From Chloracidobacterium sp. N (lineage in GTDB: Bacteria > Acidobacteriota > Blastocatellia > Chloracidobacteriales > Chloracidobacteriaceae): 64,000 nucleotides of DNA. The position numbers were made by a program, and so were the translations under genes. The stretch covers positions 2,447,819-2,511,818 of the forward strand of contig NZ_CP072642.1 of the NCBI RefSeq assembly GCF_018304765.1, in the 5' to 3' direction. Each line of letters opens with the position of its first letter. The first letter of the stretch is position 1. Under the pieces are notes generated by a model. That model was not told the origin of the DNA. It made no database searches and saw only the letters and a list, made by a program, of their open reading frames with translations. Positions 16,710 to 54,101 of this stretch are shown here, one piece after another.

Positions 16710-17570
16710 TTACTTCACGGCCGGGTGGCTTGCCGGCCGGGGGCTGAGCCACATGGCCGCCACGAGGGTGAGCAGGTAGGGCAGGGCGAGGAAGAACTGG
16801 TAGGGAATGGTGTCCAGTCCCAGGGCCTGCAGGCGGAACTGGAAGGCGCTGGACGCGCCGAAAGCGAGTGCAGCCAGGCTGACGCCGACCGGATGGCGTC
16901 GCCCGACAATCACCATGGCCAGGGCAATGAACCCCCGGCCGGCGGTCATGCCTTCGACGAACGTGTTGGAAAGCCCCAGCGCCAGGTAGCCCCCGGCCAG
17001 ACCGCAGGTGAGTCCACTGAACAGCAGCGCGCTCCAGCGCAGCCGCGCCACACTCAACCCCACGCTGGCCGCAGCGGCGGGATGTTCACCGGCGGCGCGC
17101 AGGCCGAGGCCATGGGAGGTGCGGAACAGCCAGTACCAGGTGGCAACGATCAGAACAAGCGCCAGAATGGGCACGCTCCACAGCGGCAGGGTTGGCACCA
17201 CGAAGGCAGCGTTGGAGTCGCCGACGAGTTCCCGCCGCGCCACGGCCGTTGCGCCGAGGGCAAAGATGTTGAGGGCGGTGCCGACGAGCAGGGCATCACA
17301 GCCCAGGTTGACGGACAGCAGGGCAAAGGCGGCCGTCATGGCCAGCCCTCCCAGGACGGACGCCCCTAATCCAAGCCACGGGCCAAACCGGGTGTCAGCC
17401 GTCGTGGCGCACACGGCAACGCCGGTAAACGCTGCCACCAGCATGACGCCTTCGATGCCGATGTTGACGACACCCGCCCGTTCGGAGACGGCCTCGCCAA
17501 GCGCCGCCAGCAGCAGCGGTGTCGCCAGGGTCAGCGTTGTCAGCATCAGGCCGGTGAGGATGTCAGTCAT
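16710..17570 (-). CDS. ABC transporter permease, nucleoside/simple-sugar type (NupQ/YufQ-like)
   Basis: A 286-residue inner-membrane permease with eight or so helices. EAVSERAGVVNIGIEGVML near the N-terminus is the hallmark of the branched-chain/RbsC-like permeases paired with BmpA-type lipoproteins. GLRAAGEHPAAAASVGLSV is the coupling-helix loop that contacts the ATPase. Such proteins normally work with a second permease, an ATPase and a lipoprotein encoded next door; none is present here, and the gene upstream is the DUF4276 gene. The transporter either is split over the chromosome or has been disrupted. Confidence 0.85.
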   Translation of the reverse strand: MTDILTGLMLTTLTLATPLLLAALGEAVSERAGVVNIGIEGVMLVAAFTGVAVCATTADTRFGPWLGLGASVLGGLAMTAAFALLSVNLGCDALLVGTALNIFALGATAVARRELVGDSNAAFVVPTLPLWSVPILALVLIVATWYWLFRTSHGLGLRAAGEHPAAAASVGLSVARLRWSALLFSGLTCGLAGGYLALGLSNTFVEGMTAGRGFIALAMVIVGRRHPVGVSLAALAFGASSAFQFRLQALGLDTIPYQFFLALPYLLTLVAAMWLSPRPASHPAVK

Positions 17571-17636: not shown

Positions 17637-18305
17637 TCATGGCTTACCCAGTGATTCCAACCGTTTCAGCCAGGTATCGAAATGCGGGCAGACAGCCCGA
17701 ATGGCCGCGATGCCAATCCGGTGCAACAGCGTCGGGCCGTCTGAAGTTTCCCTGTAGTCAGCTATCAGAGCAGACAAGCGCGCCTTGGGATGCGTGGTCT
17801 GACCGTCGTTGATGAGTTCCGTCCCGCCAGCCCGCGACCGGATGGCATGCAGCCTGTTCGCCAGCTTGGCCTGCCCGAAATAGTCGGCAACGGTTTCAGG
17901 GTCGCTGAAGAGCCAGGCTTCAAATTCGTGCAGCGCCAGAAACGGAATAAACCTTTGATGGTTGATCGCTTGTGCAAAGCTGGCTTCCAACCGGGCAACT
18001 TTTTGCTGCGCCGAACCAGCCCCCTGTGCTGCCTGCTGTCCCGGAAAGCCCTTCGGCAGCCCGTAGTAATCAAGCATGGTCGTCACCCAGGCATCAGAAT
18101 CTCTGAGCAAGCGCCGAAGGTCTCCCAGAATCTGTTGCCAACCCACCGCGCCGCCGCGAAATCCGCTTCCGGCAGGTAAACGTTTTGTCCACAAAACGAC
18201 GGGATGGGCAACATGTACGCCGTATGACGCCAAGTGTGGCGTCAGTACCCGTTTGACAAAAATTTCTTCGCTTTGCCCTTCAACCAGCATCAGCAGCCGG
18301 GTCAT
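17637..18305 (-). CDS. DUF4276 family protein (Toprim-like), partner of AAA ATPase
   Basis: 222 residues opening MTRLLMLVEGQSEEIFVKRV; the VEGxSE motif with its conserved glutamate is that of DUF4276 and resembles the first motif of Toprim nucleases. HEFEAWLFSDPE lies in the middle. The start overlaps the stop of the upstream AAA ATPase (ATGA), so the pair is translationally coupled. ATPase plus Toprim-like partner is the layout of OLD-type and AbiL/RloAB-like anti-phage systems; defence is inferred, not shown. Nuclease activity has not been established from the sequence, because the second acidic motif cannot be placed with confidence. Confidence 0.8.
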   Translation of the reverse strand: MTRLLMLVEGQSEEIFVKRVLTPHLASYGVHVAHPVVLWTKRLPAGSGFRGGAVGWQQILGDLRRLLRDSDAWVTTMLDYYGLPKGFPGQQAAQGAGSAQQKVARLEASFAQAINHQRFIPFLALHEFEAWLFSDPETVADYFGQAKLANRLHAIRSRAGGTELINDGQTTHPKARLSALIADYRETSDGPTLLHRIGIAAIRAVCPHFDTWLKRLESLGKP

Positions 18306-19372
18306 GGACGCCCCCCCAGGACGTTCTTCTCCCACAACTCACCCAGGCTGTACGCTTCCAGCCAATCCCTGAGCCTGTCTTTGTTGAGTCGGTTGAAAGT
18401 CGTTTTCAGCCCGTCATGCTCGGCGACGATGACCTGCTCCGGCGCAAAGTGGTTGAGCAGGGTCACAGACTGCGTCGCCAGCAACACCTGTGACCGCCTG
18501 GAAGCCGCTTCCAGCATCTCGGCCAGCATCCGAATGGCAAAGGGATGCAGACCGAGTTCCGGCTCGTCGAGCAAAATCAGCGCCGGCGGTGAAGGCTGGA
18601 GCAGCAATGTCGCCAGACAGATGAAACGGAGCGTACCGTCCGAGAGGGAATAGGCGTCGAAGTACGCCGCCGAGCCTTTTTGACGCCACTCCAGCTTGAT
18701 CTTCTTCTCGTTGAGCCGCGAGGGTGCCAGTGCAAAGCCTTCAAAAAACGGCGCGACGAGACGGATATACTCCTCGATCTGCCGGAAATGACGCGGATGC
18801 TTTTCCTGCAACCAGTACAGGTATGCCGGCAGGTTGGCCGCATCAGGACGCAAAAACCGGTTGTCTTCCAGGTCGGCCATCTGTTTTGCCGGTGAGCTGT
18901 CCGAGGTATCGTGAAAGTGATAGACGACGAGATTCCGTACCTTGGGGAAAACGAACCTGGGAATCTGGTTCTTGTAGGCGCCAGCCGCTTCTTCAAGCTG
19001 GCTTTCCTTGTGACCAACAGCGATTGGCTCACCATACGTCCAGTAGCCACTGTATTCGACGCGCTCGGACTCAAAGATGAGCGTGTCCTGGACCGCCTTG
19101 AGTTTGAAGCCGTAGGCATTTTTATCGAAGGTAAAGTCCAGCGACAGCGCCGGTGTGGTTTTTCGGCCGTGGTGCAGGAAACGATCCGGCTCACCGGCGA
19201 CATACAGTTGCAGGTTGCGTGAGAGCACCCGCTCCAGCAACCGGAAGACGCCAATCAGGTTGGATTTTCCTGAACCATTCGCGCCAATGATGATGTCGAG
19301 GTCGGTGAAGGTCAGCTCGGCATCGGCAATAGACTTGAAACCGGCAATCCTGAGTTGGCGCAAGGTACGCAT
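18302..19372 (-). CDS. AAA_21-type ATPase, RloA/OLD-like
   Basis: A 356-residue ABC/SMC-like ATPase. Walker A GANGSGKSN is at residues 30-38, following RIAGFKSIADAELTFTDLD. The signature YSLSDGTLRFICLA, Walker B LILLDEPELGLHP and switch-like LLATQSVTLLNHF follow. The insert between A and signature has no coiled coil of SMC length. This is the family seen in overcoming-lysogenisation and abortive-infection ATPases. The downstream DUF4276 gene is coupled by a four-base overlap. The upstream neighbour is the [2Fe-2S] protein gene, which ends at a terminator, so this pair is probably its own transcription unit. Confidence 0.88.
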   Translation of the reverse strand: MRTLRQLRIAGFKSIADAELTFTDLDIIIGANGSGKSNLIGVFRLLERVLSRNLQLYVAGEPDRFLHHGRKTTPALSLDFTFDKNAYGFKLKAVQDTLIFESERVEYSGYWTYGEPIAVGHKESQLEEAAGAYKNQIPRFVFPKVRNLVVYHFHDTSDSSPAKQMADLEDNRFLRPDAANLPAYLYWLQEKHPRHFRQIEEYIRLVAPFFEGFALAPSRLNEKKIKLEWRQKGSAAYFDAYSLSDGTLRFICLATLLLQPSPPALILLDEPELGLHPFAIRMLAEMLEAASRRSQVLLATQSVTLLNHFAPEQVIVAEHDGLKTTFNRLNKDRLRDWLEAYSLGELWEKNVLGGRP

Positions 19373-19403
19373 CGCAAGCCCCCAGCCATTCCATCATGGA
19401 AAG

Positions 19404-19438
19404 AAAAAAAGTGGCATCGAAAGGTTTTCCGATGCCAC
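19404..19438 (-). terminator. Rho-independent terminator of the ferredoxin-like gene
   Basis: Read on the minus strand: GTGGCATCG, a ten-base loop, CGATGCCAC, then seven T. It lies about 125 bases after the stop of the [2Fe-2S] protein and ahead of the AAA ATPase, separating the two units. Confidence 0.8.
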
Positions 19439-19562
19439 AAAGCCAGACTGGTAAAGCTCACCCACGAGCTATTCTAGTGCGGCACGTTACCGACATGTTG
19501 CCGACAGGTAAAAGTTTCCCAATCGCCCCGAACACGCCCCCTGAACGCGCTCCCTGAACATG

Positions 19563-20399
19563 CTACGGCTGCCGGTCACCGGGCTTGGGCGGCTCCGTAC
19601 CTGAACGGGTTTCACTACCCGGACGGGTCTCGCTGCGGGAACGAGTTTCGCCAGCCGAACGGGTCTCACTGCCGGGACGCGGCCGCGGCTTGACTTCCAT
19701 TGCCACCGGCCTGGCTTCGGAGGTTTTGGTTTCCGGCCCGGACTCGCCCTCTGCTGCCTTGGGCGTCGGCCTGGGCGACGTGGCCGCCGTGGGCGCGGGA
19801 GAAGCCGCCGGCGCGGTCGCGGAGGCTGGCGATGCCGCGAAACCGCTCATGCTCCGCGCCATGCCGGTCGCTACGGCTTCAAAGGCCAGAATGCCGCTCG
19901 TCAGGCTGGCATTGACAAACTGCGCCGTCAGCGTTGGCAGTTCGGCCACACCCTTTTCCTGTACGGTCTCCAGTCCGTTGAGCACGGCGGCGTAGCCGTG
20001 GCGGGCATGGTTGAGGAAGTCTTCCGAAGCGGCAGCCACCATGCGAAACCACAGTTGCAGCCCCTCGCTGAAGGTCAGCTTTTCAAACTGGGTGGCAATA
20101 TCAAGCCGCTTTGCCGCCGGCAATGTCACCGTGAGGTCTTTCTGAACCTGAGCGCAACAGGCCAACCGCCGTCCGGCCGCCAGGTCGCCAGGGTCGAACC
20201 AGCGCCGCTCCTTGGCGTCCGGTTCGGACAGGGCCGCCGCCATGGACGCATCCACACGGATTTCACAGGTCTGACAAATGCCGTGGCCGCCACAGAAATG
20301 AAGCAACGGCTGGCCGGACTGCTGGGCGGCACTCAGTAAAGTCGTGCCGGGCGCGACTTCAACTTTCTGCCCGGACGGCTGAAACGTTACGGTCGGCAT
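19563..20399 (-). CDS. [2Fe-2S] ferredoxin-domain protein with amphipathic middle and repeat tail
   Basis: 278 residues. Residues 1-95 form a plant/adrenodoxin-type [2Fe-2S] domain: cysteines in FCGGHGICQTC and in RLACCAQ supply the four ligands. Residues 95-195 are helical and amphipathic (FEKLTFSEGLQLWFRMVAAA, LTAQFVNASLTSGILAFEAV). The rest is Ala/Pro/Thr-rich and ends in a degenerate S-E-T-R repeat. The domain order recalls the chlorosome envelope iron-sulfur proteins CsmI/CsmJ/CsmX of green sulfur bacteria; this is a hypothesis, since no sequence identity to their C-terminal halves could be checked. It is divergent from valS and has its own terminator. GAGAAAG precedes the start. Confidence 0.75.
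   Translation of the reverse strand: MPTVTFQPSGQKVEVAPGTTLLSAAQQSGQPLLHFCGGHGICQTCEIRVDASMAAALSEPDAKERRWFDPGDLAAGRRLACCAQVQKDLTVTLPAAKRLDIATQFEKLTFSEGLQLWFRMVAAASEDFLNHARHGYAAVLNGLETVQEKGVAELPTLTAQFVNASLTSGILAFEAVATGMARSMSGFAASPASATAPAASPAPTAATSPRPTPKAAEGESGPETKTSEARPVAMEVKPRPRPGSETRSAGETRSRSETRPGSETRSGTEPPKPGDRQP
19593..19673 (-). repeat. Degenerate coding repeat, S-E-T-R units
   Basis: The tail of the [2Fe-2S] protein reads GSETRSAGETRSRSETRPG then SETRSGTE: five or so copies of a hexapeptide centred on (S/G)-E-T-R. The DNA shows matching runs of GGTCTCGCTG/CGGGTCTCACTG type, so the repeat arose at DNA level. It would form a flexible charged tail. Confidence 0.7.
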
Positions 20400-39992: not shown

Positions 39993-40901
39993 TTATCCGT
40001 TGTTGAAATAGTCGGAATCAACCCGCTTGAGCTGGTAGGTTGTCACAGGAGTAACGCCTACATCGTAGTCAATCATGAGTTCTGCCAGGCGTTTCCCGTC
40101 AATAAGCACAATCCTGGCTTCAATGGTTGATACGTATCTTACAGCTTCCTGGGAGAACGAAGAAGTCGTGATAAAAACACCTTTTTTGGCCCGTTTTCCG
40201 GCAAGTGCGCCAACAAATCTCTGTATCTCCGGCCTTCCTACACACTGATCCCACTTCTTTGCCTGGATATAAATGGTGTCGAGTCCCAATCTGTCCTGAT
40301 CAATAATGCCATCTATCCCTTCATCCCCGACCTGGCCGACCGCCCTCGCCGCCTCGCGGCGCGATCCTCCATATCCCATTCTGACCAAAAGCTCAACAAC
40401 CAGTCTTTCAAAAAAGGCGGGGGTGCTTTGCTTGACAATGTCGAGCAACTCCTGCGCCAGACTGTCCCTCAGCTCTGCGTAAGCTTCTTCCAGTACCTCC
40501 TCTGGAGTTTTTTCCTCCTTGCAGATTCCCTTTTTACTTTGCGTCTCTTTTTGTACTTCGCATCTTCTGAACTCAGTGAACTCAGGGAATTGGGCGAGAA
40601 ATTCGTTTTTGATTTCCGAAGGATTTTCATTCAAAACTTCTCTTCCCCTTCTGGTAATCACATAATGTGAGCGGCGTACTTTATCAATGAGCCTTGCCTT
40701 TACCAGGTAGGTCTTTGCCCATCCTGCACGGGAATAAAAGACAGGCTGCTTGCCACTTGGCAGAAGCTCTCTTAGCTCCTCTTCGGTCAGGGAAAATTCT
40801 CTGGCCAAAGTGTTCACCACATCCTGAACCGAATGTTCTTTTCCATCAGCGAAGCACCGCAGAAGCGGCAGCATTAACGTCTGGTAGTCAGGTATAGGCA
40901 T
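39993..40901 (-). CDS. mrr: Mrr-type restriction endonuclease
   Basis: 302 residues. An N-terminal winged-helix Mrr_N domain (PDYQTLMLPLLRCFADGKEH, then VQDVVNTLAREFSLTEEELR) precedes a PD-(D/E)xK nuclease: GYGGSRREAARAVGQVGDEG followed by IDGIIDQDRLGLDTIYIQAK, with catalytic Asp and QAK lysine. Type IV enzymes of this kind cut methylated DNA. The gene is visibly AT-richer than its neighbours and uses more AAA/TTT codons, which suggests acquisition. There is no methylase nearby. Confidence 0.9.
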   Translation of the reverse strand: MPIPDYQTLMLPLLRCFADGKEHSVQDVVNTLAREFSLTEEELRELLPSGKQPVFYSRAGWAKTYLVKARLIDKVRRSHYVITRRGREVLNENPSEIKNEFLAQFPEFTEFRRCEVQKETQSKKGICKEEKTPEEVLEEAYAELRDSLAQELLDIVKQSTPAFFERLVVELLVRMGYGGSRREAARAVGQVGDEGIDGIIDQDRLGLDTIYIQAKKWDQCVGRPEIQRFVGALAGKRAKKGVFITTSSFSQEAVRYVSTIEARIVLIDGKRLAELMIDYDVGVTPVTTYQLKRVDSDYFNNG

Positions 40902-48340: not shown

Positions 48341-49189
48341 ATGCACGTCACTATGTTTGTTATTCGCGCCACTTTACGGCGTATCTTCGAGGTGCCGGCC
48401 TCTATCGGGGAACTGTGTGAATTCTTCGCCGACCCACGCAGTTTCGCCCGCCACATGCCGATCATCGAGCACATCACCCCAGTGGCCGACAGTGATGATG
48501 TCACCCGCTGGCGCTTCTGCGTCCGGGTGCCCATCGTGGCGCCCATCACGTGGGAGTTCGTTATGTACCGGCGCATCCGGGCGGAAACCGGCGAGATTGC
48601 CTACTCGGCCGCCGAAGATTCACCCGACTTCTTCCAGTGCGACGTTCACGTGCGCCCCAACCCCAATGGCGCTACGGATGCCGATGTGCGCCTGCACATG
48701 CGCGTCTGGCGGCCGCGCGCGCGGGACATCCATCCGCTAGCCGGCATCGTTGGCGAACAGTGGATTTCACGGGTCGTCACCGACCGGATGGACAAAATGG
48801 CCACGGCCTTTGTCACCAGCGGACTGCGTGAAATCCAGGCCCGCGCTGCGGCCGCCCACACCACATCCCTATCGGCAACACCCCTGCCCGATGCCGGTGC
48901 AACGTCTGAAGATCAGCCCTTGTCGCCACTAGTGGCGGCGACATTTGCCACAGCGCCGCACGCAACGCATGTCAACGGGTACGGTGAAGTCCCTCCCCCA
49001 CTTGACCCGGAGCCGGTTCCAGCGTCCGCTGACCAACCTCAGCCGATGACGCCCAGCGTGCTGGAAACAACGTCGGCGTCCGACGATGCAACCTCTGAAG
49101 CAGAAGCCGTTGGCGTCACGGAAGGCTTGTCATCGAAGCGTACGGAGAGCAGTTTGGAGACGCCCGGCTCCGGCATGGTCACGCCATAA
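48341..49189 (+). CDS. SRPBCC-family protein with low-complexity C-terminus
   Basis: 282 residues. The first 165 resemble polyketide cyclase/SRPBCC folds: FEVPASIGELCEFFADPRSF, WRFCVRVPIVAPITWEF, RMDKMATAFVTSGLREIQ. The rest is Ala/Thr/Pro-rich without structure. The last 151 bases are antisense to the 3' end of smc; the longer tail may be non-essential. ATG 48341 is used; ATG 48353 is an alternative. Ligand unknown. Confidence 0.7.
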   Translation: MHVTMFVIRATLRRIFEVPASIGELCEFFADPRSFARHMPIIEHITPVADSDDVTRWRFCVRVPIVAPITWEFVMYRRIRAETGEIAYSAAEDSPDFFQCDVHVRPNPNGATDADVRLHMRVWRPRARDIHPLAGIVGEQWISRVVTDRMDKMATAFVTSGLREIQARAAAAHTTSLSATPLPDAGATSEDQPLSPLVAATFATAPHATHVNGYGEVPPPLDPEPVPASADQPQPMTPSVLETTSASDDATSEAEAVGVTEGLSSKRTESSLETPGSGMVTP

Positions 49190-52100
49190 ATCGAGTCGGC
49201 GGCTTCCATGGTGCGCTTGTTGTGCGTGGCCACGAGAAACTGCGTGTGCCGACTCATCGCCCGTACCTTTTCGGTGAAGCGGTCAATGTTGGCTTCGTCA
49301 AGCGGTGCATCCACTTCATCCAGCACACAGAACGGACTCGGCCGGTAGCGGAAAATGGCCAGTATCAGCGCCATGGCCGCCATGGCCTTTTCGCCCCCGG
49401 AAAGTAGCAGCACCGACTGCAACCGCTTGCCCGGCGGCTGGGCGACAACCTCGATACCGGACTCCAGCGGGTCATCCGGCTCGATGAGCAGCATTTCGCC
49501 CCGGCCGCCTCCGAACAGTTCCTGGAAAATTTCCCCGAAATAGGCATTGATGCGGTCAAAAGCCTCGCGGAAGCGATGCTTCGTGCGCTGGCGGATTTCC
49601 CTGAGCGTCTCTTCCGTTGCCGCTATCGAATCCAGAACATCCGCCCGCTGCGCCGTCAGAAATTCGTGGCGGCTTTCGGCTTCAGCCAGTTCTTCCAGCG
49701 CCAGCATGTTGATGGAGCCAAGGGCCGCAATGGACTCCTTGAGTGTCGCTATCCGTTCTGACAGTTCCCGTTCCAGTGGCTCCGGGTCCGATGTCGGGAC
49801 CTCGGCCGGTGGCAGTGCCTCCAGCGTACAGCCCAACTCGGTCTGGCAGTGGCGGTCGAGATACTCCAGTTCAGCCGCGATTTTGGCGGCACTGACTTCA
49901 ACCGTCGCCAGCCGTTCCCGAAGGTCACGTTCCACGGCCTGGGCCGCCTGCTGTTCACCGTCGAGACGTTCCAGTTCCCGGCGGCTGTCGGACAAACGGG
50001 CTTCGGCAGACGCTACCTGCTTCAGGACTGCGACAACGGCCGCTTCCGCTGCCACTTCCTGGCTCAGGCACGCGGCAAGCTGCTGCTGACAGTCACTGAG
50101 GCGCGTCTGAAGTGTGGCGCGCTCAACAGCCAGGTGCGCCAGGCGTTGTTCCAGTTCGCGCCATTCCCGTTCGAGCCGCCGCAGTTCCCCTTCGGCGGCG
50201 CGGTGACGTTCCAGCCGGCCGGCCGCCTGGGTACGCAACTCGGCCAACGCCTGCGCGGCCGTCTCAACCGCCGGACGAAGCTGCGCCAGGCGTTGCTGCC
50301 CGGCCAGCACAGCCTGTTCGGCGGTTTCCCGCTGGGCAATGGCTGCGGCGAGTTCGGTTTCCAGGGCGGTGCGCCGGGGCGCAAGCTGTCCGGCTTCAGC
50401 GTCGAGCTGGCGCTGCTCGGCGGCCACGACAGCGACGTGCTGGTTGGCCCGCTCCACGTCCCGGCGGCGCTGGGCAACCTCCACGGCCTGGGCGGCCCGG
50501 TGGGCTTCAAGCTGGCGCAGTTCGGCATCCAGGGCGTCGCACTGCTGCCGCGCCGCCGCCTGCCGGGTCGCCAGTTGCGCCTGTTCCTGCTCCAGTGTTG
50601 CCAGGGTTTCGGCGGCGGCCCGTGCCTCGGCATGCAGGGCGCGCAGTTCACGTTTGACACGCAGAATGCTCTTGGCCGTTCCCCGTCCGGCCGTCAGCCG
50701 CAGCGCACCCAGAACCTGCTCGCCGGCCGGAGTGATGAACAGCCGCGCCGGGTCATCGGCGGATGCTTCCAGAGCCGCCTCCAGCGACGGTACCAGCCGG
50801 GCTTCGGCCAGATGTGGGAAAGACTGCCGTACGGCGGCCGCAAGGTGCTCCGGTACACCCAGCACATCCCAGAAATGCGTCGGCGGCGATTCCGGTCTGG
50901 TGGCGGCCGCGCCGGCCCCATCGGCGCCGCCATGAATGCCCGTCACGAGCAGGGTGGCGCGTCCGGCCTGGGCAGCGGTCAACCAGTCGGCGGCCGCCCG
51001 CGCTGCGGCTACCGTTGGCACGATGACTGCCTGCAAAACTTCGCCCAGCACATCTTCCACGAGGCTTTCGTAGCCATCCCGCACCACGAGAACGTCAGCC
51101 AGCGTGCCAAGCGGCTGGAAACCGGGAATCTCCGCGGCCCGCTCAAAGAGCAGCCGCACCGTGGATGTGTAGTGGGCATGCTGCCGGTCGAGTTCCTCCA
51201 GTGCCTGCCGGCGGTCTTCGGCGCGCTGGTGCGCCCGCCGGACTTCAGCCAGCCGGTCGGTCAGTGCCCGGTGGGCGGTCTGCACTTCAGCAAGTGTTGT
51301 CTGCGCCGCCGTCAATTCGGTCTGAACGGCGGCCAGCCGTTGCTCGTGATCGTGCAAAGCGGCCTCCGCCGCGGCGCATTCGGCCAGTGCCTGGGACTGC
51401 CGTTCGGCCGCGCGGCGCTGTTCCTGTTCCAGCGATTGCCGCTGCCGCGCCAGCCGGGTGGCTGCCTCGGTAAGCTGTTCAACCTGGTGCCGGAGTCGTT
51501 CGGCGCGGGTCAGGGCCGTCAAATGCTGCTGGCGGGCTTGTTCATAGTCCGTTTCGGCAGTGTGTACCTCGGCGACGGCCGCCTGATGCTTCCGGTTGGC
51601 CTGGGACAGTTCGGCCTCGATGGCCGCCAGTTCCGCAGCCAGTTGCGCCGTCTGTGTCTGCGCCTGTGCCAAAGCGCCCTGCAACCAGCGTTGGCGTTCA
51701 GCCGTCTGCTCGCTGGCGGTGGCCAACTCGGCCGCCCGCTCATCGAGACGCAGCACCTCGGCTTCCAGACTGGCCTTGGCGTGTCGCAGCCGTTCGCGTT
51801 CGCGTTCGGCGGCCGACGCTGCCGAACGCGCGGCGGCAAGGTCATCTTCGGCCTGCCGGGTTGCCTCACGTGCCGTGGCCAGAGACGCAGCCAGGCGGGA
51901 CAGTTCAGACCGGCACTGCGCATGCTCAGCCGCCAGTGCGGCCTGGGTTTCCGCCAGAGATGCCCGGCTGGACTGCAAGCGCGCGTAAGCCAGCGCCAGA
52001 TATTGCCGCTGGGCCGCCCGGAGTTCTTCCCGCAGGGCGACAAACCGGCGTGATTTCTGCGCCTGACGCTTGAGATTGGCGATGGAGCGCTCAATTTCGC

Positions 52101-52821
52101 CGATGAGATCGGTGAGCCGGGCCAGGTTCTGGCGGGTGGCTTCGAGCTTGAGTTCGGTCTGGTGGCGTTTGGCTTTGAAACGTCCGATGCCGGCGGCTTC
52201 TTCGATGAGTGCCCGGCGTTCCTGGGGCTTTGCGGAAAGCACCTGTCCGATGCGTCCCTGCTCGATGATGGCATAGTGCGCCCGGCTCAGGCCCGTGCCG
52301 CTGAAAAAATCTTGGATGTCACGCAGCCGGCAGAGGCGGCCGTTCATCAGGTAGTCGCTGTCGCCGCTCCGGTACAGCCGGCGTCCGATGGTGATTTTCT
52401 CCCCGGCGAGCAGGCGTGGCAGCCGGGGACGCCGCCGGGCCGCAGCCGCCGGGGGATCGGTTGCCGTGGCGTCTTCCTGCACTGACTCGTTGGCGGCCAG
52501 CAGGGCGCCGGTCGGATCGTCGGCTTCCGCCAGCGGACGCCCCTCGGCAAGGTCCTCCACGGCGGTGAAGGTCAGCGTGACTTCCGCCAGGCCCAGCGGC
52601 TTCCGCTGCCGGGTTCCGTTGAAGATGACATCCTCCATTTTGCCGCCGCGCAGATTTTTGGCCGACTGTTCCCCCAGCACCCAGGTGATGGCATCCACGA
52701 TGTTGCTTTTGCCGCAGCCGTTCGGGCCCACAATGGCCGTGACGCCGGGATGGAACAGGACTTCGGTGGCGTCGCAGAAGCTTTTGAAACCACGGAGTTC
52801 GAGTTTATCGAGACGAAGCAT
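49039..52821 (-). CDS. smc: Chromosome segregation protein SMC
   Basis: 1260 residues. The N-lobe has GPNGCGKSNIVDAITWVLGE (Walker A, residues 32-40), followed by two very long coiled coils around a hinge near residue 540-700 (IPGFQPLGTLADVLVV, LITHGIHG-like). The C-lobe has LSGGEKAMAAMALILAI and Walker B PFCVLDEVDAPLDEANIDRF. An additional insert of Ala/Pro between LAEADD and LARR near residue 110-145 is unusual. The last 28 residues after SKLLSVRF are extra and overlap the SRPBCC gene antisense. ATG 52821 begins the conserved MLRLDKLELRGFKSF. Confidence 0.96.
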   Translation of the reverse strand: MLRLDKLELRGFKSFCDATEVLFHPGVTAIVGPNGCGKSNIVDAITWVLGEQSAKNLRGGKMEDVIFNGTRQRKPLGLAEVTLTFTAVEDLAEGRPLAEADDPTGALLAANESVQEDATATDPPAAAARRRPRLPRLLAGEKITIGRRLYRSGDSDYLMNGRLCRLRDIQDFFSGTGLSRAHYAIIEQGRIGQVLSAKPQERRALIEEAAGIGRFKAKRHQTELKLEATRQNLARLTDLIGEIERSIANLKRQAQKSRRFVALREELRAAQRQYLALAYARLQSSRASLAETQAALAAEHAQCRSELSRLAASLATAREATRQAEDDLAAARSAASAAERERERLRHAKASLEAEVLRLDERAAELATASEQTAERQRWLQGALAQAQTQTAQLAAELAAIEAELSQANRKHQAAVAEVHTAETDYEQARQQHLTALTRAERLRHQVEQLTEAATRLARQRQSLEQEQRRAAERQSQALAECAAAEAALHDHEQRLAAVQTELTAAQTTLAEVQTAHRALTDRLAEVRRAHQRAEDRRQALEELDRQHAHYTSTVRLLFERAAEIPGFQPLGTLADVLVVRDGYESLVEDVLGEVLQAVIVPTVAAARAAADWLTAAQAGRATLLVTGIHGGADGAGAAATRPESPPTHFWDVLGVPEHLAAAVRQSFPHLAEARLVPSLEAALEASADDPARLFITPAGEQVLGALRLTAGRGTAKSILRVKRELRALHAEARAAAETLATLEQEQAQLATRQAAARQQCDALDAELRQLEAHRAAQAVEVAQRRRDVERANQHVAVVAAEQRQLDAEAGQLAPRRTALETELAAAIAQRETAEQAVLAGQQRLAQLRPAVETAAQALAELRTQAAGRLERHRAAEGELRRLEREWRELEQRLAHLAVERATLQTRLSDCQQQLAACLSQEVAAEAAVVAVLKQVASAEARLSDSRRELERLDGEQQAAQAVERDLRERLATVEVSAAKIAAELEYLDRHCQTELGCTLEALPPAEVPTSDPEPLERELSERIATLKESIAALGSINMLALEELAEAESRHEFLTAQRADVLDSIAATEETLREIRQRTKHRFREAFDRINAYFGEIFQELFGGGRGEMLLIEPDDPLESGIEVVAQPPGKRLQSVLLLSGGEKAMAAMALILAIFRYRPSPFCVLDEVDAPLDEANIDRFTEKVRAMSRHTQFLVATHNKRTMEAADSIYGVTMPEPGVSKLLSVRFDDKPSVTPTASASEVASSDADVVSSTLGVIG

Positions 52822-52979
52822 GGCGGGTTCAGACCGGGCGCCGGTGGAGGCCGTTCGCGCCGCAAAGCGCAAGATGTGCGCTTTCAAGCGATGCCAGACA
52901 CTAAAGGTTGCGGCCACGGGCTGTCAATTGTTGACCTGCCGGGCGTTTCCGCCAGCGCGGACGACACCCGTGAACCGGC

Positions 52980-53097: not shown

Positions 53098-53144
53098 CCC
53101 CGACCGCCTTTTCATCCCATCCTGTCAGGTTGGCTTTCCCGCAC

Positions 53145-54101
53145 ATGGCCTTGCTCGTCGTCGAAGGGCTGCGGACGCACTTCCCTACCCGCGCGGGTGT
53201 CGTCCCGGCCGTGGATGACGTGTCGTTGACCATTGAACGGGGCGAAACGCTGGCGCTCGTGGGCGAGTCGGGTTCGGGAAAGTCCGTGACGGCACTTTCG
53301 ATCATGGGTCTGGTGTCGCCGCCCGGACGCATCGTTGCCGGCCGTATCAGCTTTGCCGGACGTGAGTTGCGTACGCCGGCCGAAGCTGCCGCGCTGCGCG
53401 GTTCGCACATGGCGATGATTTTTCAGGACCCGATGACCTCGCTCAACCCGGTCTTTACCGTCGGGGAACAGATCGCGGAAGCCCTCCGCCGCCACAAGGG
53501 GCTTTCGTCCCGTCAGGCCTGGCAGCAGGCCGTGGAAGCGCTGGCGTCAGTGGCCATTCCCGATCCGGCACGGCGCGCCCGCCAGTATCCCCACGAAGTG
53601 TCCGGCGGCATGCGCCAGCGCGTCATGATTGCCATGGCGCTCAGTTGCAACCCACAGTTGCTCATCGCCGATGAACCAACCACGGCGCTCGATGTGACGA
53701 TTCAGGCGCAGATTCTGGAACTCATCGCCGTCCAGCAGCGGGAGCGCAACCTGGGCGTGCTGCTCATCACGCACGACCTGGGCGTGGTGGCGCAGGTGGC
53801 CCACCGGGCCGCCGTGATGTACGCCGGGCGCATTGTCGAGACCGCACCGGTCGAAATCCTGTTTTCACGTCCGCAACACCCGTACACGCAGGGACTTCTG
53901 GCAAGTGTGCCGCGTCTGGGGCGGCAGGAAGCGCGCCTGCCAACCATTGAAGGCGTCGTGCCCAAACTGACGGCCCTGCCGCCCGGCTGCGCCTTTGCCC
54001 CGCGCTGCCCGGAAGCCCGGCCGGAGTGTCGGCAGGGCGAGCTGGCCCTGAAAGTCCTCGACGCACAACAGGGCCACGCCGTCCGCTGCGTCCGACGCTA
54101 A
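53145..54101 (+). CDS. Oligopeptide/dipeptide ABC transporter ATPase (OppD/DppD-like)
   Basis: 318 residues. Walker [20 protein letters not shown]-loop [11 protein letters not shown], signature [15 protein letters not shown], Walker [17 protein letters not shown] and His of ITHDLG are intact. The C-terminal HPY/cysteine-rich extension [16 protein letters not shown] is characteristic of peptide importers. No permease or binding protein is adjacent. ATG 53145 is used. Confidence 0.92.

Follow-up and report, generated by a model that had tools for sequence, protein, structure and literature searches.

Relation of the locus to described ATPase–Toprim systems

The combination of an ABC ATPase with a Toprim domain is the make-up of the defence systems OLD, Gabija, Eco8, AbiL, MADS, and PARIS (PMC12409363). 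In PARIS, a hexamer of AriA sequesters AriB, and a phage trigger frees AriB to cut tRNA (PMC12409363); PARIS-like modules, which respond to Ocr, are proposed backup effectors in BREX (PMC12839542). HEC stands for Hma-embedded candidate (PMC12988326, PMC10855318), and antiviral activity is reported for some HECs other than HEC-01 (PMC12988326).

Here we describe a gene pair in a 64,000-nt stretch of the Chloracidobacterium sp. N genome (NZ_CP072642.1, positions 2,447,819 to 2,511,818), which we call the window. The pair lies on the minus strand and comprises an ABC-type ATPase with an SMC/Rad50/OLD-like head (18302..19372, 356 aa), identified by Pfam, PADLOC, its motifs, and an AF2 model, and a DUF4276 protein (17637..18305, 222 aa), identified by Pfam, PADLOC, and an AF2 model. 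Both open reading frames and their overlap are as the original prediction gave them: the ATPase stop and the DUF4276 start share an ATGA that can be read directly from the sequence (18302..18305), an arrangement that points to translational coupling. The DUF4276 start is the ATG at 18305, the one conserved among relatives; a 232-aa frame from the GTG at 18335 is an upstream extension with no counterpart in them and was rejected.

In Pfam, the ATPase matched AAA_21 (1.8e-36) and its partner DUF4276 (3.1e-48). Using the HEC profiles of PADLOC-DB 2.0.0, we found that the ATPase matches HEC-01A (PDLC04175; 1.1e-139, 463 bits) over residues 2-356 of 356 and the DUF4276 protein HEC-01B (PDLC04188; 6.7e-76, 253 bits) over residues 1-220 of 222. 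These matches fall on adjoining genes with a 4-base overlap, so that the locus is HEC-01 under its two-gene definition, with the same two full-length genes in the same order. Relatives of the pair are embedded in methylase/helicase operons, as the HEC name implies, but the window pair stands alone between housekeeping genes; embedding in Hma or restriction-modification (R-M) genes gave HEC-01 its name and is not required by the two-gene definition. HEC-01 itself has the status of a candidate class, represented by many divergent sub-profiles. Since both matches run end to end, the pairing already has its entry among candidate defence systems, and we regard the locus as an ordinary yet well-supported member of that class and a solid candidate. 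The original prediction that no defence function has been characterised for this exact pairing agrees with the literature we searched, where we found no phage-challenge data for the pair or for any HEC-01 system, but the pairing itself is not new to the catalogue. A search on DUF4276 returned no paper, and one on HEC-01 just a list mention, in Desulfovibrio piger, the HEC-defining preprint lying outside the search.

The pair was then set against the better-known systems. OLD and GajA of Gabija share with it an ABC ATPase head and a Toprim with E-x3-E and D motifs, and OLD gives the best Toprim fold match; they differ in that the window domains are on two genes and DxD has a Tyr for its second Asp. 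Gabija was rejected, as there is no GajA fusion and no GajB UvrD-like helicase, the neighbours being a permease and a ferredoxin-like gene. PARIS also has a separate ABC ATPase and Toprim nuclease, and AriB ranks high among the fold matches (Z 7.4), but the window effector belongs to a family other than DUF4435, the window ATPase is about 100 residues shorter than AriA, and the sequence match between the two ATPases is limited to the general AAA_21 part. The DUF4276 protein has no PF14491 match at E<=1 and the genome no PF14491, which rejects PARIS. In RloAB and AbiL, too, a small nuclease-like gene comes after the ATPase gene; the DUF4276 protein does not match RloB (PF13707), and its genome has no RloB. 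The proposed OLD/AbiL/RloAB-like arrangement is supported for the ATPase/Toprim make-up, by profiles and fold, but not as membership of RloAB or AbiL. The pair shares with MADS an ABC ATPase (MAD3) and a partner with weak similarity (MAD4), but no other mad genes adjoin the window pair, and MADS was rejected on NCBIfam scores of 106 bits against a cut-off of 420 for MAD3 and 11.7 against 160 for MAD4. The mad3 profile PDLC04135 also matches a chromosomal SMC protein (49042-52917; 8e-67) and an oligopeptide transporter ATPase (53130-54098; 3e-24) of the window, so mad3 hits alone cannot be read as MADS; we set aside as not diagnostic the matches of the ATPase to mad3 and AriA in PADLOC.

Predicted structures and active sites

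The ATPase has intact Walker A (GANGSGKS, residues 30-37), signature (LSDGT, 243-247), and Walker B (LLDEPE, 267-272) motifs, as in an OLD-type ABC ATPase. Invariant across 36 relatives are G30, N32, G33, G35, K36, S37, S244, D245, G246, D269, E270, P271, and E272, together with Q301 of the TQS that occupies the H-loop position. Its AlphaFold model (pLDDT 91.9; each protein was modelled alone) resembles SMC/Rad50 heads as well as PtuA, the ATPase of Septu and retron defence systems (Z 18-21), and in a profile search the best solved relatives were an OLD nuclease, retron ATPases, and GajA. At 356 aa, the protein has no long coiled coil.

The model of the DUF4276 protein (pLDDT 91.4) is closest to the OLD Toprims 6njw (Z 8.7, rmsd 4.3, 174 aligned) and 6nk8 (Z 8.6), with further matches to PARIS AriB (8ux9_A; Z 7.4, rmsd 4.8, 176 aligned), Eco8 OLD (Z 7.4), and GajA (Z 6.6), where Z 7-9 is just modestly over the unrelated background. 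Foldseek alone also ranked OLD first, weakly (E 0.002). A divergent DUF4276 relative matched the Toprim profiles of GajA (2.3e-5) and Old (7.6e-4), and a profile–profile comparison with OLD Toprims covered motif 1 alone (32 columns; E 0.002 for one comparison, probability 14%). By sequence, the DUF4276 profile found nothing in the PDB, so the assignment depends on fold, motif spacing, and weak profile hits; on these, DUF4276 is a Toprim-fold protein.

Residues invariant among 46 relatives include E9, G10, E13, D79, Y81, H126, and E129, from which we propose a candidate metal site of E9, E13, D79 (Y81), and E129 with H126. The ligands in BpOLD are E400, E404, D455, and E508 (PMC7049728). In our mapping by order and spacing, the E-x3-E spacing is shared (E9/E13 and E400/E404), while D79-x-Y81 corresponds to D455-x-D457 and E127-x-E129 to T506-x-E508. 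Where DxD has its second Asp, 46/46 close relatives have a Tyr; in some distant members the position is still acidic, as in the VDLDRD of a second HEC-01 protein of this genome (locus L002, below). Thus, the Toprim glutamate is present and half of the DxD is kept: of the active-site residues asked for in the original prediction, the glutamate and the first aspartate are invariant and the second aspartate is replaced.

Conservation and transfer of the gene pair

In all 54 relatives that could be scored, the two genes are adjacent with order and direction unchanged. The 4-base overlap occurs in 24/54 and a 1-base overlap in 13/54 (37/54 together), and 52/54 have the genes no more than 8 bases apart; the coupling of the ATPase to DUF4276 is far beyond chance. 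We also surveyed PF14103 across Acidobacteriota (297 genomes, with 14 control genomes) and found it in 35/297 genomes of the phylum and 0/14 controls. The ATPase is directly upstream of DUF4276 in 26 of the 29 acidobacterial loci examined, the three exceptions being one locus 144 bases from a contig start and two truncated loci. The two-gene order is kept in Pseudomonadota, Acidobacteriota, Planctomycetota, Verrucomicrobiota, Chloroflexota, Actinomycetota, Bacillota, and archaea, and both gene trees contain the same well-supported groups, so the ATPase and DUF4276 move as a unit. To most close relatives, the window ATPase is about 80% identical and the Toprim protein 55-68%. No close DUF4276 was found in phage records.

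In the gene trees, the pair of this genus forms one group nested among Pseudomonadota sequences, and Pseudomonadota also provide its nearest relatives beyond the genus. By this nesting, the pair was gained horizontally, probably once, and the members that lack it lost it or never gained it. Three of the seven genus genomes carry it, always between the same permease and ferredoxin-like genes, the Toprim protein of the window being 97% identical to one of the other two copies and 61-62% to the other. In the window, these borders, both outside the module, are a BPD_transp_2 permease on the left (16710..17570, minus strand; Pfam 9.4e-34) and a 2Fe-2S ferredoxin-domain protein on the right (19563..20399, minus strand; Pfam Fer2 5.4e-12). 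The site is empty in the other four genomes, where the permease start and the ferredoxin-gene end are 190-240 bp apart, as computed from BLAST ends and ORFs. The pair is therefore dispensable, which is compatible with a defence gene and a neutral passenger alike.

Relatives within restriction-modification operons

No R-M gene adjoins the pair in the window, where the neighbours are housekeeping genes and form no defence island. Elsewhere the pair recurs in modification and restriction operons. It lies between a large DNA methylase and an SNF2/BrxH/HmaA-like helicase at seven loci (L014, L015, L016, L021, L022, L024, L025), and between or beside the mod/res genes of Type III-like systems at five (L028, L029, L030, L064, L065); at L026 it adjoins a methylase and a ResIII protein, and at L043 HmaB. 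Plasmids show the same association in varying order: SNF2, pair, methylase in Aeromonas media; methylase, pair, helicase in Aeromonas veronii; and helicase, methylase, pair, Mrr in Ideonella. On an 11-kb mobilizable plasmid of Acinetobacter, VapBC adjoins the pair. The labels given by the annotators of the plasmid records are AAA ATPase and DUF4276. Around the stand-alone copies, a scan of 96 neighbours gave scattered defence hits only. The original prediction would have been refuted by a pair conserved only with metabolic neighbours; the relatives sit instead in R-M, Hma-like, and Type III operons. Without a defence role, it is difficult to account for embedding in several distinct R-M chassis.

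A small gene of about 165 aa recurs directly 5' of the ATPase in the methylase–helicase operons (L014, 6427-6921), with relatives in L015, L016, L019, L022, L024, and L052. The L014 gene has no Pfam or PADLOC match. It may be a third part of the embedded form, one that the window lacks.

Proposed function and alternative explanations

The view of the locus as a candidate anti-phage module of an ATPase and a Toprim-like protein is supported by the profiles, the fold comparison, the conservation of the active site, and the neighbourhoods. We therefore favour, with a probability of about 0.7, that the pair is a stand-alone copy of the mobile two-gene HEC-01 anti-phage module, with the ATPase as sensor and the Toprim nuclease as effector. 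The ABC ATPase would be a sensor or scaffold that keeps the Toprim protein inactive, and an infection cue would cause it to release or activate its partner. The released or activated Toprim protein may then cut nucleic acid with metal ions, the target being host tRNA, host DNA, or phage DNA; this cleavage would stop phage growth, probably by abortive infection. We propose this scheme by analogy with AriA–AriB of PARIS, and we infer the ATPase–Toprim complex, its sensing of a trigger, the nuclease activity and its substrate, the abortive outcome, and the anti-phage effect. The housekeeping neighbours, the Tyr in DxD, the modest Z of 7-9, and the weak Foldseek matches to OLD (E 0.002) count against this reading.

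As the pair is so often found inside R-M operons, it is an attractive hypothesis that inhibition of R-M triggers it in a PARIS-like way. The pair might then be a guard of R-M, whose ATPase detects phage anti-restriction factors, or R-M enzymes that have stalled, and sets free a suicidal Toprim nuclease, the window copy being a detached version that serves some other R-M system of the genome. The recurrent embedding in unrelated modification-restriction operons, the precedent of the Ocr-responsive PARIS-like modules as proposed BREX backup effectors (PMC12839542), and the further methylase/helicase loci and Mrr gene of this genome fit such a guard, but many copies, that of the window included, have no adjoining R-M gene, and we hold it to be rather unlikely. 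Less likely again is a bolder form, in which HEC-01 would be a portable guard: a conserved ATPase would detect failure or inhibition of several unrelated R-M enzymes and unleash a Toprim nuclease that diversifies fast, has an unusual E..E..DxY..E site, and possibly acts on a new RNA target, and the genus would keep a free-standing guard. The pair could also be a selfish module in the style of a toxin–antitoxin system, with a toxic Toprim nuclease, a neutralising ATPase, and phage protection as a secondary effect. Its two small overlapping genes, its carriage on plasmids, including the 11-kb mobilizable one with VapBC alongside, and its presence or absence at a fixed site in the genus would suit this reading. 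Typical antitoxins, however, are fast-evolving, whereas here the ATPase is better conserved than the Toprim protein (about 80% versus 55-68%), and a position inside R-M operons suits defence better; we consider such a module improbable.

The ATPase fold, whose highest Z values are to SMC and Rad50 heads, and the housekeeping neighbours in the window could indicate a DNA repair or housekeeping pair unrelated to phage, with a RecF/Rad50-like head and a Toprim as in RecF–RecR. The patchy distribution (35/297 genomes of the phylum, 0/14 controls), the horizontal transfer, the embedding in R-M operons, and the dispensability within the genus make this very improbable. Finally, the original prediction placed the pair where the partner genes of a nucleoside ABC permease would be expected, and the pair is indeed on the same strand as the permease and directly upstream of it. 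The ATPase is of the OLD/SMC kind and not a transporter ATPase, and relatives elsewhere have no adjoining permease. The four congeners in which about 0.2 kb and no partner gene separate the permease from the ferredoxin-like gene refute both the expected slot and the reading of the pair as a partner set of the permease, to which we give practically no weight.

DUF4276, still named a domain of unknown function, gains a concrete and testable role as a Toprim effector from its fold, its conserved acidic residues, its near-obligate ATPase, and its embedding in R-M operons. The links of the pair to R-M systems go beyond the original prediction and its novelty falls short of it, and the general picture of ABC-ATPase/Toprim defence, already well populated, is unchanged. 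The empty sites in congeners and the compact two-gene size make the pair easy to test.

The region upstream of the pair

The strong terminator said to precede the pair was confirmed. This intrinsic terminator (19403..19438, minus strand) has a 12-bp stem (19438-19411), a 4-nt loop, and a tract of seven T, and it ends 30 nt before the ATPase ATG. It is kept at the same position in 7/7 genus genomes, whether the pair is present or absent, and belongs to the preceding ferredoxin-like gene or a small transcript, not to the pair; it has no Rfam match. The 30-nt gap to the ATPase leaves scant space for a promoter, suggesting that the pair is probably expressed by read-through or from a promoter missed by our consensus scan.

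Immediately 5' of the terminator is a 25-nt stretch, GGGTGAGCTTTACCAGTCTGGCTTT (window 19439-19466, minus strand), which is invariant in 7/7 genus genomes despite variable flanks. Most of the seven have a TAGAAT-like box just upstream of it, and the region of the stretch and terminator folds better than shuffled sequences (z -3.2). The stretch has no Rfam match; the region is a candidate small RNA or a candidate leader/attenuator of the permease operon.

Other defence-related loci in the window and genome

The sole other clear defence gene in the window, 21 kb from the pair, encodes an Mrr-type (Type IV) restriction enzyme with Mrr_N and Mrr_cat domains (39996-40901, minus strand), amid housekeeping genes. 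At another locus of the genome (L112, 6009-13258; G000:C1:1394009-1401258), an SNF2-type helicase (1210 aa) adjoins a DUF1156/N6_N4-like methylase (1206 aa); this Hma/BREX-like pair could be a functional R-M partner.

The genome also carries, on its other replicon, a second and very different HEC-01 pair (L002, G000:C2:939456 region). Its ATPase (L002 1885-3036, minus strand) matches HEC-01A at 2e-158 and its Toprim-like protein (L002 1273-1881, minus strand) HEC-01B at 6e-63; the latter has a classical DxD in its motifs VEGKTDK ... VLVDLDRDG ... HAVEAW. Two congeners (G001, G005) have DUF4276 matches at C2, which suggest that they carry this second pair too.
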